The notes under the pieces are model-generated. The model ran no database searches. It had not been told where the DNA came from and was given only the letters and a program-made list of their open reading frames with translations. The translations under genes and the position numbers were made by a program. A DNA stretch of 64,000 nt from Shimia aestuarii. Lineage in GTDB: Bacteria > Pseudomonadota > Alphaproteobacteria > Rhodobacterales > Rhodobacteraceae. Location of the stretch: positions 124,001 to 188,000 of the forward strand of contig NZ_JAKVRD010000006.1 in NCBI RefSeq assembly GCF_022814865.1, given 5' to 3'. Within the stretch, counting starts at the first letter, position 1. Every line of letters starts with the position of its first letter. Shown here piece after piece: positions 25,112-61,561 of this stretch.

Positions 25112-25678
25112 ATGAGTGACTCAACGCTGAATTTCACGCGGCGCGGCCTCTTGCGCGCCTTTGCGGCAACCACGGTAGCAGCAGCCCCCACATTCTCCCA
25201 CGCGGCAGGTTTCCTGCGAGGCTCCGGCGATATTCGCCGGATCCGCATGTATTCCGCCCGCACCGGGGAACGCATGGACACAATCTATTGGATCGAGGGC
25301 GAGTACATCAAGGAAGCCGTCAACGAAATCAATAGCTTCATGCGCGACTGGCGCACCAACGACGTGAAGAAAATCGACCTGCGCACCATCGATATCATGG
25401 CCGCATCGCACAACCTTCTCGACGTGCACGAACCCTATATGCTCCTGTCGGGCTACCGCAGCCCACAGACCAACGCGATGCTGCGCTCGCGCTCTCGCGG
25501 GGTGGCAAAGAACTCGCTGCACATGAAGGGCCAGGCGGCGGATTTGCGTCTCGCGAATCGCTCGGTCAACCAGATGGCCAAGGCAGCCCTTGCCTGTCAC
25601 GCGGGCGGTGTCGGGCGCTACTCGGGCTCCAATTTCGTCCATATGGATTGCGGCCCGGTCCGCAGCTGGGGCCGGTAA
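25112..25678 (+). CDS. MepK/YcbK-like murein endopeptidase (DUF882, M15_2)
   Basis: A 188-residue exported peptidase. A twin-arginine-like signal (NFTRRGLLRAFAATTVAAAPTFSHA) precedes the DUF882 domain. Zinc-ligand candidates are seen in SLHMKGQAADLR (His and Asp) and NFVHMDCGPVRSWG (His), as in the LAS peptidases. The E. coli homologue MepK cleaves the 3-3 crosslinks made by L,D-transpeptidases, and ycbB and ycbK are also neighbours there. Here the two genes are divergent. The TAT motif suggests export in folded form, perhaps with metal already bound. Confidence 0.88.
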   Translation: MSDSTLNFTRRGLLRAFAATTVAAAPTFSHAAGFLRGSGDIRRIRMYSARTGERMDTIYWIEGEYIKEAVNEINSFMRDWRTNDVKKIDLRTIDIMAASHNLLDVHEPYMLLSGYRSPQTNAMLRSRSRGVAKNSLHMKGQAADLRLANRSVNQMAKAALACHAGGVGRYSGSNFVHMDCGPVRSWGR

Positions 25679-25752: not shown

Positions 25753-25794
25753 TTTTTGGATCAACACGTTGCAGCGCGGCACGGCGCCAAAGTT

Positions 25795-25835
25795 CCGATG
25801 TAGGTATCACGTCGGTATTGCGTCTGTATTGCGTC
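25795..25835 (+). repeat. Tandem 11-bp repeat element, copy 1
   Basis: Three consecutive 11-bp units are seen: GGTATCACGTC (25803-25813), GGTATTGCGTC (25814-25824) and TGTATTGCGTC (25825-25835). The first two are identical to units on the opposite strand at 61401-61422. The 5' flank CCGATGT (25795-25801) can pair with ACGTCGG (25809-25815) as a 7-bp hairpin. The element lies between convergent genes and is outside any open frame that looks coding. Confidence 0.8.
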
Positions 25836-26028
25836 AGCGCGGCGCGAAACCGCCGATCCCCTTGCCCTGCCGCACGGTCCATGAACGGACACAGACCTTC
25901 GTCCTTCTGCCAGACATGGAAAAGGCGCCGCAGGGGCGACGCCTTTTCTTGAGAGGGAGGCTCCAAGGGAAGGAAGAAAAGAGCCACCGGTCTCTGCCGA
26001 AGAAGGGAACTGCGATCCCCCTCCTCCG

Positions 26029-26691
26029 TCAGCTCTCGATCGGTTTGAGCCGACCGGGTTCGTTTGTCTCGAGATAGGCCTCCTGCTCGGGCGTGAGGTC
26101 GATCTCGTCATAACCGGTGACCATCGGTCTCACATGTTCGCGGAAGCCATGGCCCACGGTGAGCAAGTAGATATGCACGATGATGAAGGCACCAATCACG
26201 TAGGCCGCGAAAAGATGCAGGTTCGCGATCAGGGTAATCGCCAGCACGCTATTGCTATCGGCCCAGAAATTATAGGTCAGGTAGAGCAGCCCCGTGACCC
26301 AGATCGCCGGGAAGATGAACCATTTCAGGACAAAGTAGGTCGCGGCCTGAAGCGGGTTATGCTTGCGCCAGAAGATCTTTTCGTAGGGGTGCTCTTCGCC
26401 CTTGAAGACGCCGTAGGCGTAGAAGCGGGCGACCGAGACCATGCCTTCGATCTTGGGAATGAACTGACGCCATGTGCCCGTGGTGAATAGCCAGAAGGTC
26501 GCGAAAATCCACAAGCCAAGCAACGCCAGCGCCGCCATCGTGTGCAGCATGACCGCCGGGCCGAAGGGGATCAGGGCATGCACCCCGTTGAGCCCCATGC
26601 CCGTCACCATCAGCGCCATGATGAGAAGCACCTGCATCCAATGCCAGAGGCGTTCGAAGCGGGGGTAAACCTTGACGATACGCTTAGTCAT
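26029..26691 (-). CDS. Membrane cytochrome b subunit (FdhC/cytochrome b561 type)
   Basis: A 220-residue integral membrane protein with four to five helices. Histidines placed to bind b-type haems occur in FERLWHWMQVLLI (helix 1), AVMLHTMAALALL, and ANLHLFAAYVIGAFIIVHIYLLTVGHG near the end. It would pass electrons from quinol to the octaheme cytochrome encoded just upstream. The two genes overlap by 8 bp, and the start (ATG at 26691) has AGGAGG upstream. The family also includes formate dehydrogenase gamma subunits and Ni/Fe hydrogenase cytochromes; the context favours service to the multihaem protein. Confidence 0.88.
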   Translation of the reverse strand: MTKRIVKVYPRFERLWHWMQVLLIMALMVTGMGLNGVHALIPFGPAVMLHTMAALALLGLWIFATFWLFTTGTWRQFIPKIEGMVSVARFYAYGVFKGEEHPYEKIFWRKHNPLQAATYFVLKWFIFPAIWVTGLLYLTYNFWADSNSVLAITLIANLHLFAAYVIGAFIIVHIYLLTVGHGFREHVRPMVTGYDEIDLTPEQEAYLETNEPGRLKPIES

Positions 26692-28306
26692 GATGGCCTC
26701 CTTCGGTTTTGCGCGAGAAGATACGGATGAGCGCGTGCGCCGCGACACCCAATAAGGTCAGAAGGATCAACGCCTTACCCAGAAGGCCGACCGGCCCGTT
26801 GGTATTGGTGCCGGGCATGAAGACACCCGCAACATTGGAAAGGCGGCCATCCTGCTGGTGACACTCGACGCAATCCACGGCGTTTTCGGCCGGGGCGACC
26901 ATGTGGGTAATCGGCCAGTACATGTAGGTGTCGACGAAATCGAACTCGCCCGAATAGGGCTTGTTCGCAGCTTTCATGCCCGCATCAATCGCCTTGCCCC
27001 AATCGAAATTGGTCCAGAAGGCGGTGTCGGTCGTCGGTCCCCAGACATGGGTATAGACGAGGTTGTTGTTGACCTTGTCATAGGCCTGCCGGCCTTCCAT
27101 GCGCTTGAAGGGCCAGATGCGCGAGGTGCCGTCTTCGCGGTCACCATGGATGCGGTTGACCTCGACGGTGTTTGCCGGGTCGATCTTGCGATCATAGGTG
27201 GTGTATTCCACCTGCCCGTCGAACCATGCGTAATAGGCCGTGGCGTCTTCCTGATAGGCGAAATTGCCCTTGGTCGACATATAGGTGTGCATGTGCTTGC
27301 CCTTCGAAGAGGTAAAGTTCTCTTCGCTGAACGGTTTGCCGTTCTCGTCAAGCTTGCCCGCAGTGGACCAGTCCCACATGGATTTCGTCGGTACACCGCC
27401 ACGGGCGTATTCCGGAATGTGACAGGACTGACAGGCGAGCGTGTCGGTATGGTCGTTGAGCTTCAGGCCCTTGATATTGGTCGGGTGCGGTTCTTGACCG
27501 TGGCAGGATTGGCAGGAGGCCGCATGTCGCGCCTCGCCCGGTTTGCCGGTGCCATGCGGATCGGAAGCCAGCACGTTATAGCGCGATCCGGCCCATTGGT
27601 GACGGTCCGAGACGTGGCAATCGGCGCAGACCATGCCCTCGCCGCCCTCTTCGACCGAGGACATATGCACGTCGACATCATGGGTCGGGTTGTAGAGCGC
27701 CGACGACAGATCGCCGTGTTTCACGTTATCGCCGCCACCGCCATAGAAGTGACAATTGCCGCAGTTGTCGCGGTCGGGCATGCCGACGCTCATCGCCGCT
27801 TTCTTGAGGTCTACGGCCCAGGCCTTGGCCCCGGTGATGGTCTTGCCCTTGGCCTCCATCGGTGGGTGGCCCGCCCCGGTGGCCAGCTTGGTATATTGGT
27901 CCGACTTGTCGTGACAGACGAGGCAGTCCTTTGCGTTGGCCTGTTGCGGCGGTTCCTGGCTCATGTCGTCCCAGCCATAGCCGGCGTGACAAGAGGTACA
28001 GCGCGGTTCATTGCCCGCGACCGAGCCGCAGAAGGCGTTGATCACGTTCTTCTTGCCAAGGCGCTGGCCGGTTTCGGGGTGCTCGTAATCCCACTTGAAG
28101 TGGATCGAGTGCATCATCTGATCGTCGGCCTCGGTATGACACTCGAGGCAGGCTTCGGTCACTTCCGGGCCCGATTGGAAATCCTTTTGCAGGCTCAGGA
28201 ACTTGGAGTGATCCGCCGTGGACTTGCTCACCTCATCCTGTGCCATGGCGAGCGTGGCGGATGAAAAGGCTATGGCAAGGCCGAATACGGCCCTTTTGAA
28301 ATACAT
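26684..28306 (-). CDS. Octaheme c-type cytochrome, tetrathionate reductase (OTR) family
   Basis: A 540-residue exported multihaem cytochrome with a signal peptide (MYFKRAVFGLAIAFSSATLAMAQ). There are eight CxxCH haem motifs in order: CLECH, CTSCH, CLVCH, CGNCH, CADCH, CQSCH, CQSCH and CVECH. The pattern fits the octaheme tetrathionate reductase family, whose Shewanella member reduces tetrathionate, nitrite and hydroxylamine in vitro. A C-terminal hydrophobic helix (LLGKALILLTLLGVAAHALIRIF) would anchor it to the membrane beside the cytochrome b. The ATG at 28306 has GGAGG 7 nt upstream. An FNR box lies 72 bp upstream, so expression is probably favoured at low oxygen. Confidence 0.9.
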   Translation of the reverse strand: MYFKRAVFGLAIAFSSATLAMAQDEVSKSTADHSKFLSLQKDFQSGPEVTEACLECHTEADDQMMHSIHFKWDYEHPETGQRLGKKNVINAFCGSVAGNEPRCTSCHAGYGWDDMSQEPPQQANAKDCLVCHDKSDQYTKLATGAGHPPMEAKGKTITGAKAWAVDLKKAAMSVGMPDRDNCGNCHFYGGGGDNVKHGDLSSALYNPTHDVDVHMSSVEEGGEGMVCADCHVSDRHQWAGSRYNVLASDPHGTGKPGEARHAASCQSCHGQEPHPTNIKGLKLNDHTDTLACQSCHIPEYARGGVPTKSMWDWSTAGKLDENGKPFSEENFTSSKGKHMHTYMSTKGNFAYQEDATAYYAWFDGQVEYTTYDRKIDPANTVEVNRIHGDREDGTSRIWPFKRMEGRQAYDKVNNNLVYTHVWGPTTDTAFWTNFDWGKAIDAGMKAANKPYSGEFDFVDTYMYWPITHMVAPAENAVDCVECHQQDGRLSNVAGVFMPGTNTNGPVGLLGKALILLTLLGVAAHALIRIFSRKTEGGHHD

Positions 28307-59323: not shown

Positions 59324-61381
59324 ATGACGATGAGCGACCAGAGCAGCGATCCCCTCGTGATCTTCACCCCCTCGGGCAAACGCGGACATTTCCCGGTCGG
59401 CACGCCCGTATTGACCGCTGCGCGACAGCTCGGGGTCGATCTCGATTCCGTGTGTGGCGGACGCGGCATCTGCTCCAAATGCCAGATCACCCCCTCCTAT
59501 GGCGAGTTCTCCAAACATGGCGTGACCGTCAAGGACGATGCGCTTTCGGAATGGAACGCCGTCGAACAACGCTATGACGACAAACGCGGCCTCGCCAAGG
59601 GCCGGCGTCTGGGATGTCAGGCGACGGTGCAAGGCGACGTGGTGATTGACGTGCCCCCCGAAAGCCAGGTGCACCGCCAGGTCGTGCGCAAGGCCGCCTC
59701 TGCGCGCGAAATCATCATGGATCCCGCGACGCATCTCTATTTTGTCGAGGTTGATGAGCCCGACATGCACGAGCCCACCGGCGATTTCGAACGGCTCGAG
59801 CGTGCGCTGCGCGAACAATGGCAGATCGAAGAGATCTCCGCTGACCTCACCCTGCTCTCGCGTCTGCAAGAAGTGCTGCGCCGGGGCAAATGGTCGGCGA
59901 CCGTCGCGCTGCATCAATCCCATAAGGACGAGATCCCGAAACTGGTCGAGATATGGCCCGGTCTGACCGAAGACCGTATCTATGGCCTCGCCATCGACCT
60001 CGGTTCGACCACCATCGCCGCGCATCTCTGTGATCTGCGCAACGGCGAGGTCAAGGTCTCCTCCGGCGTCATGAACCCGCAGATTCGCTTTGGCGAAGAC
60101 CTGATGAGCCGGGTTTCCTACGCGATGATGAACCCCGGCGGCGAGGTCGAGATGACCACCGCCGTGCGCACCGCGATCAATGGCCTCACGGAATCCATCG
60201 CCACCGAGGCCGGTATCCGACCGTTCCAGATCCTTGAAACGGTCTTTGTCTGCAACCCGGTGATGCATCACCTTCTCATGGGGATGAACCCGGTCGAGCT
60301 TGGCCAGGCGCCCTTTGCGCTGGTGACCTCGGAATCGATGTCCCTGCCCGCCCGCGACCTTGACCTCACCGCGATGAACCCCAACGCACAGGTCTATGTC
60401 CTGCCCTGCATCGCGGGCCATGTCGGGGCCGACGCCGCCGCCGTGACGCTTGCCGAAGCGCCGGACAAATCCGAAGACCTCGTGCTTGTCGTCGATGTCG
60501 GCACCAACGCGGAAATTCAGCTTGGCAACAAGAGCCGCGTCCTTGCCTGCTCCTCGCCCACTGGCCCGGCTTTCGAGGGCGCACAAATCTCCTCAGGCCA
60601 GCGCGCCGCCCCCGGCGCCATCGAGCGGATTGAAATCAACCCCGAGACCAAGGAACCCCGCTTCCGCGTCATCGGCTCTGACCTCTGGTCGGACGAGGAC
60701 GGCTTTGACCTCGCCATCGCCACCACCGGCATCACCGGAATCTGTGGCTCTGGCATCATCGAGGCCGTCGCGGAAATGCGTATGGCCGGGCTTCTCGACT
60801 CGCGCGGCCTCATCGGCTCTGCCGCGCAGACCGGCACCGAGCGATCCGTCCCCGAGGGGCGCACCCATGCCTACCTGATCCATGACGGCACCGCCGAAGG
60901 CGGCCCCAAGATCATGGTGACCCAAGGCGATATCCGCGCCATTCAACTTGCCAAATCCGCGCTTTACGCAGGTGCGCGCCTCCTGATGGACGAGATGGGC
61001 GTGGATAAGGTCGACCGCGTGGTCCTCGCCGGCGCGTTCGGCGCACATATCTCGACCAAACACGCCATGGTGCTTGGCATGATCCCCGATGCGCCGCTCG
61101 ACAAGGTGACCTCGGCGGGCAACGCTGCGGGCACCGGCGCGCGGATCGCGCTCTGCAATGTCGGCGCGCGGCGCGAGATCGAGACCACGGTGCGCAAGAT
61201 CACCAAGGTCGAGACCGCGATCGAGCCGAAATTCCAAGAGCATTTCGTCAACGCCAACGCCATCCCGCATGCCACCGATCCCTTCCCGGAGCTGGCCAAG
61301 GTGGTGACCCTCGCCGATCTCGACTTCAATACGGGCGGCGGCGGTGAAGGCGGCGGGCGTCGTCGGCGGCGCCGGGGCTAA
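59324..61381 (+). CDS. RamA/RACo-like corrinoid reductive activator (ferredoxin + DUF4445 ASKHA)
   Basis: A 685-residue protein with an N-terminal [2Fe-2S] domain (cysteines in DSVCGGRGICSKCQ and LGCQA), a linker domain, and a C-terminal ASKHA ATPase core of the DUF4445 type. ASKHA segments include YGLAIDLGSTTIAAHL, VLVVDVGTNAEIQLGN and VVLAGAFGAHISTKHAMVLGM. Proteins of this type reduce inactive cob(II)alamin. In several Rhodobacterales a RamA-like protein is needed for B12-dependent methionine synthase. The last residues are GGGGEGGGRRRRRRG, an unusual glycine-arginine tail. A long upstream frame exists, but the ATG at 59324 coincides with the ferredoxin start. Confidence 0.88.
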   Translation: MTMSDQSSDPLVIFTPSGKRGHFPVGTPVLTAARQLGVDLDSVCGGRGICSKCQITPSYGEFSKHGVTVKDDALSEWNAVEQRYDDKRGLAKGRRLGCQATVQGDVVIDVPPESQVHRQVVRKAASAREIIMDPATHLYFVEVDEPDMHEPTGDFERLERALREQWQIEEISADLTLLSRLQEVLRRGKWSATVALHQSHKDEIPKLVEIWPGLTEDRIYGLAIDLGSTTIAAHLCDLRNGEVKVSSGVMNPQIRFGEDLMSRVSYAMMNPGGEVEMTTAVRTAINGLTESIATEAGIRPFQILETVFVCNPVMHHLLMGMNPVELGQAPFALVTSESMSLPARDLDLTAMNPNAQVYVLPCIAGHVGADAAAVTLAEAPDKSEDLVLVVDVGTNAEIQLGNKSRVLACSSPTGPAFEGAQISSGQRAAPGAIERIEINPETKEPRFRVIGSDLWSDEDGFDLAIATTGITGICGSGIIEAVAEMRMAGLLDSRGLIGSAAQTGTERSVPEGRTHAYLIHDGTAEGGPKIMVTQGDIRAIQLAKSALYAGARLLMDEMGVDKVDRVVLAGAFGAHISTKHAMVLGMIPDAPLDKVTSAGNAAGTGARIALCNVGARREIETTVRKITKVETAIEPKFQEHFVNANAIPHATDPFPELAKVVTLADLDFNTGGGGEGGGRRRRRRG

Positions 61382-61389
61382 GGCGCACC

Positions 61390-61435
61390 ACCGCGATACG
61401 GACGCAATACCGACGTGATACCGACGTTGGTTTTT
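61390..61435 (-). repeat. Tandem 11-bp repeat element, copy 2
   Basis: Read on the minus strand, units GGTATCACGTC (61422-61412), GGTATTGCGTC (61411-61401) and a diverged CGTATCGCGGT (61400-61390) follow each other. The first two units equal those at 25803-25824. On the plus strand CCGACGT (61410-61416) pairs with ACGTTGG (61424-61430), and TTTTT follows. This copy can therefore also act as the terminator of the RamA-like gene. Confidence 0.8.
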
Positions 61436-61487: not shown

Positions 61488-61561
61488 GCGGGTATGGTGA
61501 AAAGGTATCACGCGAGCTTCCCAAGCTTAAGTTACGGGTTCGATTCCCGTTACCCGCTCCA
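61488..61561 (+). tRNA. tRNA-Gly (anticodon CCC)
   Basis: Acceptor stem GCGGGTA pairs with TACCCGC. The anticodon loop TTCCCAA gives anticodon CCC, and the T arm contains GGGTTCGATTCCC. The discriminator is T and the CCA end is encoded (61559-61561). The gene ends only 8 bp before the pgi stop on the other strand. Confidence 0.94.

Follow-up and report, generated by a model that had tools for sequence, protein, structure and literature searches.

Direct repeats with an 11-bp period form the Pho box, and the direct repeats of clt are spaced near 11-12 bp. Other motifs are dispersed along chromosomes and carry a direction: KOPS are described as oriented from origin to terminus (PMC2680272), and AIMS as octamers that become more abundant and more strongly biased on approaching the terminus (PMC5993296). 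The clt of Streptomyces is made up of short repeats that an FtsK-like hexamer recognizes, and clt-like copies are reported on chromosomes (PMC4170104). REP elements, extragenic, present in many copies and 21-65 nt long, are described as hairpins, mostly with a GTAG/GTGG foot (PMC6006769). The element presented here is also dispersed and built on an 11-bp period. No description of it was found in the titles and abstract openings of part of the matching open-access papers.

Architecture of the element

The window, i.e., the whole 64-kb stretch of DNA analyzed, carries a 22-bp tandem of GGTATCACGTC and GGTATTGCGTC at 25803-25824 on the plus strand, and an identical one at 61422-61401 on the minus strand. 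Positions and identity are exactly those of the original prediction, and the third, diverged unit that it described is present in both copies, as TGTATTGCGTC at 25825-25835 (plus strand) and CGTATCGCGGT at 61400-61390 (minus strand). The whole element is longer than that description, with the following parts:

25791-25842, plus strand: element copy 1, whole, ~52 bp, W-tract degenerate (weight-matrix score 58.8; R1 45.9 bits at 25794-25840)
25803-25813, plus strand: copy 1, unit 1, GGTATCACGTC
25814-25824, plus strand: copy 1, unit 2, GGTATTGCGTC
25825-25835, plus strand: copy 1, unit 3, TGTATTGCGTC, first base diverged
25836-25842, plus strand: copy 1, 3' tail, degenerate (AGCGCGG vs. GGTGCGG)
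61383-61434, minus strand: element copy 2, whole, ~52 bp (weight-matrix score 72.0; R1 54.3 bits at 61382-61435)
61423-61434, minus strand: copy 2, 5' flank AAAACCAACGTC (A-tract, GTC end)
61412-61422, minus strand: copy 2, unit 1, GGTATCACGTC
61401-61411, minus strand: copy 2, unit 2, GGTATTGCGTC
61390-61400, minus strand: copy 2, unit 3, CGTATCGCGGT
61383-61389, minus strand: copy 2, 3' tail, GGTGCGC

The 11-bp unit has four matches in the window, where 0.22 are expected (100 shuffles). R1, a sequence-only model built from 63 elements, recovers exactly two elements in the window, copies 1 and 2; its training set holds close kin of copy 2 and neither of the window copies.

The full element is ordered as a W-tract, ~7 bp, GTC, usually three 11-bp units of the form kGTATNNCGTC, and GGTGCG. 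Over the 65 three-unit elements of the own genome, the information content climbs steeply at -12 and drops at +39. The 5' tract is an A-tract in this genome, and T-tracts occur as well in others. Exactly three units are present in 65/71 own-genome elements, two in three and four in three; among 259 elements pooled across several genera, 200 have three units, 56 have four and three have five. A subset of this pool bears outer boxes: GAATC at -43/-42 (37 cases), GTTAAC at -34 or -22 (+/-1; 67 cases) and again near +25, and GCGYGCG near +34. The chance expectation for GTTAAC is ~1 per 90-bp flank set, and in the own genome, gaps with an element hold it at 14-fold the density of the remaining gaps (28 in 14.3 kb vs. 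10 in 70.8 kb). None of the outer boxes is found at either window copy.

The analysis detected no RNA structure in the element. The folding of single copies is unremarkable (z from -0.1 to -1.4 in six folds), and among 120 sampled elements per strand, the mean z is -0.6 and -0.3, with 17-20% below -1.5. Hairpin or cruciform arms, hinted at by single copies, are not upheld across 265 elements: their alignment yields no consensus structure, and pairing between an element's own arms is no stronger than with shuffled arms (-14.1 vs. -13.8 +- 0.2). None of the six loci searched has an Rfam match at an element; the single match there, a SAM_alpha riboswitch (L142:6306-6383; 65.2 bits) in a Roseovarius record, lies more than 1 kb from the element. 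A function at the RNA level, one of the options left by the original prediction, could account for the copies that come after stop codons; against it stand this lack of structure and the fact that elements point both ways with respect to their neighboring genes, and such a role is very improbable. Also in Roseovarius, a palindrome (GAAACGTACG...CGTACGTTTC region) recurs downstream of the elements in L142, L234, L238 and L239.

Distribution, constraint and turnover

The original prediction had proposed a search for the repeat across the genome and its relatives. In the own genome (G000; 3.97 Mb in 70 contigs), the strict pattern GGTATNNCGTCGGTATNNCGTC has 79 exact matches, representing 71 distinct elements, and its reversed control has none. 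A weight-matrix scan over 200 kb of this genome finds six elements, two of them strict matches; extrapolating the density of this one stretch suggests ~120 elements per genome. Chance or a local duplication, which the original prediction would have seen in two isolated copies without conservation in relatives, is ruled out by the counts in the window (4 vs. 0.22) and genome-wide (79 vs. 0), and the repeat is clearly not limited in that way.

Among 60 genomes, 18 (the own one included) are positive for the strict pattern, all within the 25 genus members. Across the family, the strict pattern occurs in 22/394 genomes, nearly all of different genera. With R1 at E <= 1e-4, at least 34/394 are positive, a lower bound, as ~14 candidates were scored per genome under strict filters and the counts saturate; they include G004, which has a strict count of zero and at least 14 R1 matches. 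Shimia, Roseovarius, Pseudooceanicola, Salinihabitans, Silicimonas, Boseongicola and others are among the matches listed. When two mismatches are allowed, G017 and G022, with only two and four strict matches, yield 64 and 63 (controls 0 and 1); their consensus has drifted, and the third unit is often TGTTTTGCGGA. The strict pattern is therefore misleading for such seemingly poor genomes. A genus-limited, fast-expanding repeat, suggested by the genus-bound strict matches and their unequal counts in sister species, was withdrawn in view of these 64 and 63 matches in sister genomes and those of G004, and the apparent expansion in G019 is an artefact of the strict pattern. The distribution across the family is patchy, which counts against a polar signal.

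Plasmid and phage records contain no match at E <= 0.01, which is weak evidence since short diverged copies could escape. The single match in a viral collection (L240:7472-7529) adjoins genes orthologous, on both flanks, to a host locus (L091), and this contig is probably host DNA. Matches also occur in Bacteroidales-type genomes (L151, L174, L191, L226); those listed for G071 have another NN (CT, CC, GT) and resemble codon repeats rather than the element.

Elements at orthologous positions were compared in 98 pairs, 29 matched by both flanking genes and 69 by one, with some elements recurring across pairs. Per-site differences amount to 0.61-0.66 in the flanks, 0.51 at NN and 0-0.12 at most fixed positions. 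The GT at +34/+35 differs at 0.01; it was no part of the DNA pattern used to retrieve most loci but forms a weight-matrix column, and its conservation is not wholly free of ascertainment. Constraint is strong on the fixed bases and slight on NN, an effect that is partly ascertainment because the elements were found by those same bases. In 740 kb around ftsK from five genus members, every one of the 18 elements scores 55 or more and the range from 12 to 55 is empty; no shuffled sequence exceeds 0. In the 3.38 Mb of fetched DNA, 63/297 matches score 5-50; on visual inspection, most of them represent a shifted register or another genus, with one two-unit copy from the own genome (L064).

An element is present at the orthologous place for 28/72 own-genome elements, in a partial sample of other genomes. 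Copy 1 is one of these cases: its counterpart lies in L150, a record of the isolate of G021, between flanking proteins that are both 92% identical. When the strict elements of G023 are compared with G000, both flanking genes are common to 3/40, which is a lower bound, and one flanking gene to four more. The element at 61074 of G006 is absent from G001, where a gap of ~75 bp stands; gain and loss both fit. Turnover of the element between genomes is real, and the low number shared between G023 and G000 counts against a direction-marking signal.

Placement among genes and orientation to replication

The elements are intergenic in 68 of 71 cases in the own genome according to an ad-hoc gene finder, or 69 with looser margins. 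The position relative to gene ends, which the original prediction had suggested tabulating along with strand bias, is far from even. Convergent gaps are enriched (21/65 elements vs. 44/367 control gaps, p = 1e-4) and divergent gaps depleted (4/65 vs. 100/367, p = 1e-4). The control gaps come from the same loci and measure 60 bp or more; the tally omits six elements that fall within a called gene or lie at the end of a contig. Between co-directional genes, there is a mild preference for the strand opposing the genes (27 vs. 13, p = 0.04; controls 111 vs. 112). Some copies start ~10-20 bp past a stop codon, one conserved copy sits just upstream of a gene start, and a simple scan places an ordinary terminator-like hairpin between gene and element in 7/21 convergent cases.

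Both window copies had been placed between convergent transcription units. This holds for copy 1, flanked by genes for an M15-type peptidase (plus strand, 25112-25678) and a cytochrome b561 (minus strand, 26029-26691), and fails for copy 2, located between a RACo-type gene (ending at 61381) and a tRNA-Gly (61488-61561), both on the plus strand, with phosphoglucose isomerase on the minus strand beyond. Beside the cytochrome b561 gene, the translation of 26684-28306 shows a multihaem cytochrome-like protein with many CxxCH motifs.

The strand bias is pronounced. Judged by GC skew in loci of up to 12 kb, the element strand is the G-rich strand at 63/71 own-genome loci (p = 1e-11, assuming independent loci, a few of which overlap). 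A regression of skew gives an intercept of 0.086 +- 0.006, and the slope for gene orientation, 0.007 +- 0.013, amounts to no effect. Within the own genome, the bias holds whichever way the flanking genes point (+E+ 13/13, -E- 24/27, +E- 19/21, -E+ 3/4). It recurs in G023 (37/40) and in the genome_contigs set (98/113), which partly repeats the G023 genome and contains some codon repeats; the three skew sets overlap and were not pooled. KOPS words in the own loci are found 131 times on the element strand vs. 41 times on the opposite one.

G333, a single contig of 3.60 Mb, has 26/37 elements on the leading strand (p = 0.02) when the origin is taken as the parS-like pair at 2.93 Mb and the terminus is set at 0.95 Mb, and 25/37 with the terminus exactly opposite the origin. 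In 20 sampled stretches of this genome, KOPS switch strand between 0.90 and 1.01 Mb, in broad agreement with the GC skew; no credible dif site was found at 1.01-1.09 Mb, the best match having five mismatches. On contig C18 of G023, 17/22 elements are on the leading strand. Some observations count against a direction-marking role: in P. spongiae (G060), just 7/13 elements are on the leading strand, and the element at 251786 of G000:C2 is oriented against its neighbors yet conserved in G001. An increase in polarity towards the terminus, which had looked strong by eye, falls short of significance (p = 0.22 over 72 sites), and this too counts against such a role. Strict matches are not clearly denser near the terminus, and their spacing in G333 is near random (CV 0.89).

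Elements lie within ~2 kb of dnaA in G281, G333, G023 and G060, at differing places (e.g., L281:2557-2586, L282:848-883, L284:198-245), and not in G000. The distance from dnaA to the parS-like pair is ~73 kb in G281 and ~169 kb in G060; on G333:C1, the two are ~1.6 Mb apart (1348960-1349445 and 2931339-2933262).

Possible functions and known systems

The alternation of fixed with nearly free bases at the period of a helical turn, the usual number of three units and the lineage-wide drift point to a protein that binds double-stranded DNA with one protomer per unit. The polarity to replication, together with the indifference to gene direction, points to a role tied to the direction of the chromosome rather than to neighboring genes. 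Our best reading, put forward tentatively and at somewhat less than even chances, is a chromosome-wide, direction-marking signal in double-stranded DNA, selectively kept and recognized by a putative protein reader. It is slightly weakened by the place of the GT at +34/+35 in the weight matrix and by the overlap of the skew sets. Protomers of one protein would line up on one face of the DNA, each occupying one 11-bp turn, and so give the site a head and a tail. Some machine that travels with the fork or moves on DNA (a translocase, a segregation factor or a restart factor) would then read this polarity as origin to terminus, and co-evolution of the reader and the units would produce a lineage-specific consensus. 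Two suggestions of the original prediction, several protein molecules on one DNA face and a part in chromosome organization, gain as inferences: the former from the three units, their 11-bp period, the two nearly free bases per unit and the lack of RNA structure, the latter from the polarity to replication.

The principal alternative is an interspersed repeat that has a strand bias and became domesticated. A short sequence would have been copied preferentially into the lagging-strand template, in the manner of IS200/IS605 or perhaps of REP/TnpA-REP, and copies would later have been kept since hosts use them, or insertions elsewhere purged. Such copying would produce the polarity to replication, and it fits the location next to gene 3' ends rather than in divergent promoter regions, the outer boxes at fixed spacing in some copies and the one clean empty-site comparison (the G006 element and the gap in G001), in which loss would do as well as gain. 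Insertion also offers a route to a 52-bp site that would be hard to gain through point mutation. However, the element has no strong palindrome or hairpin of the kind described for REP and IS200 ends (PMC6006769), relics are absent from the 740 kb around ftsK, a scarcity that this explanation leaves unaccounted for, positions are common to members within the genus, and the only apparent expansion proved an artefact. We consider this origin rather unlikely. A transcription-linked 3'-end element, i.e., a protein-bound roadblock or insulator against read-through between neighbors, is a weaker candidate still and looks improbable. The enrichment in convergent gaps, the copies shortly after stop codons and the mild opposite-strand preference agree with it, but the orientation tracks replication and not genes, a third of the convergent cases already show a terminator-like hairpin, one conserved copy precedes a gene start, and a consensus structure is lacking.

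Operators of a direct-repeat regulator of the PhoB/OmpR type, with CtrA perhaps acting at the GTTAAC boxes, would explain the 11-bp period, usual for such regulators. The GTTAAC boxes at fixed distance in a subset of elements also resemble CtrA half-sites of the TTAAC-N5-GTTAAC type (PMC7232146). Both the polarity to replication and the avoidance of divergent promoter regions speak against operators, which makes this a long shot, and the Pho-box-like function of the original prediction is not supported on the latter ground.

A direction-marking docking site invites comparison with KOPS. In G333, GGGNAGGG is separately present and strongly strand-biased (L289-L308, 20 sampled stretches), and KOPS look conventional there. 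In 25/25 genus members, FtsK gamma occurs once and is nearly identical. The element is not KOPS itself, as the ordinary polar GGGNAGGG coexists with it and FtsK gamma shows no difference between strict-rich and strict-poor genomes. This sameness also makes FtsK gamma a less likely reader, an argument weakened since the two classes reflect consensus drift. That KOPS already show the expected polarity counts against the element as a further signal. It is conceivable, though we hold it with reserve, that the element forms a second, lineage-specific direction code beside KOPS, in which a machine not yet described would use phased docking sites, ~100 of them drifting together in each genome.

To our knowledge, few long signals kept at orthologous positions are replication-polarized, and the known readers are chromosome machines. 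A site of ~52 bp with high information content makes its reader easy to isolate, and the lineage-wide drift amounts to a natural experiment on how a protein and dispersed sites co-evolve. If the element is a mobile repeat instead, it would lack the hairpins seen in the known strand-biased kinds.

Compared with described systems, the element is, like KOPS, non-palindromic, dispersed and oriented with the leading strand (63/71 in the own genome by GC skew, 26/37 in G333, although not in G060, 7/13). KOPS, however, are 8 bp long, while the element spans ~52 bp in phased units, with a consensus unlike GGGNAGGG. With AIMS, it shares a leading-strand bias of at least 70% in G000 and G333, but not a significant gradient towards the terminus (p = 0.22, 72 sites). 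It shares the 11-bp direct-repeat period with the Pho box, which serves as a promoter operator, whereas the element avoids divergent promoter regions. Many extragenic copies and the size range recall REPs; unlike REPs and IS200 ends, it has no such hairpin, judging by folding energies. The clt system differs in its 8-bp TRS, read by TraB, and in its role in conjugation. By analogy, the mode of action may resemble that of KOPS with FtsK gamma, or of clt with TraB, through another sequence and a putative reader.
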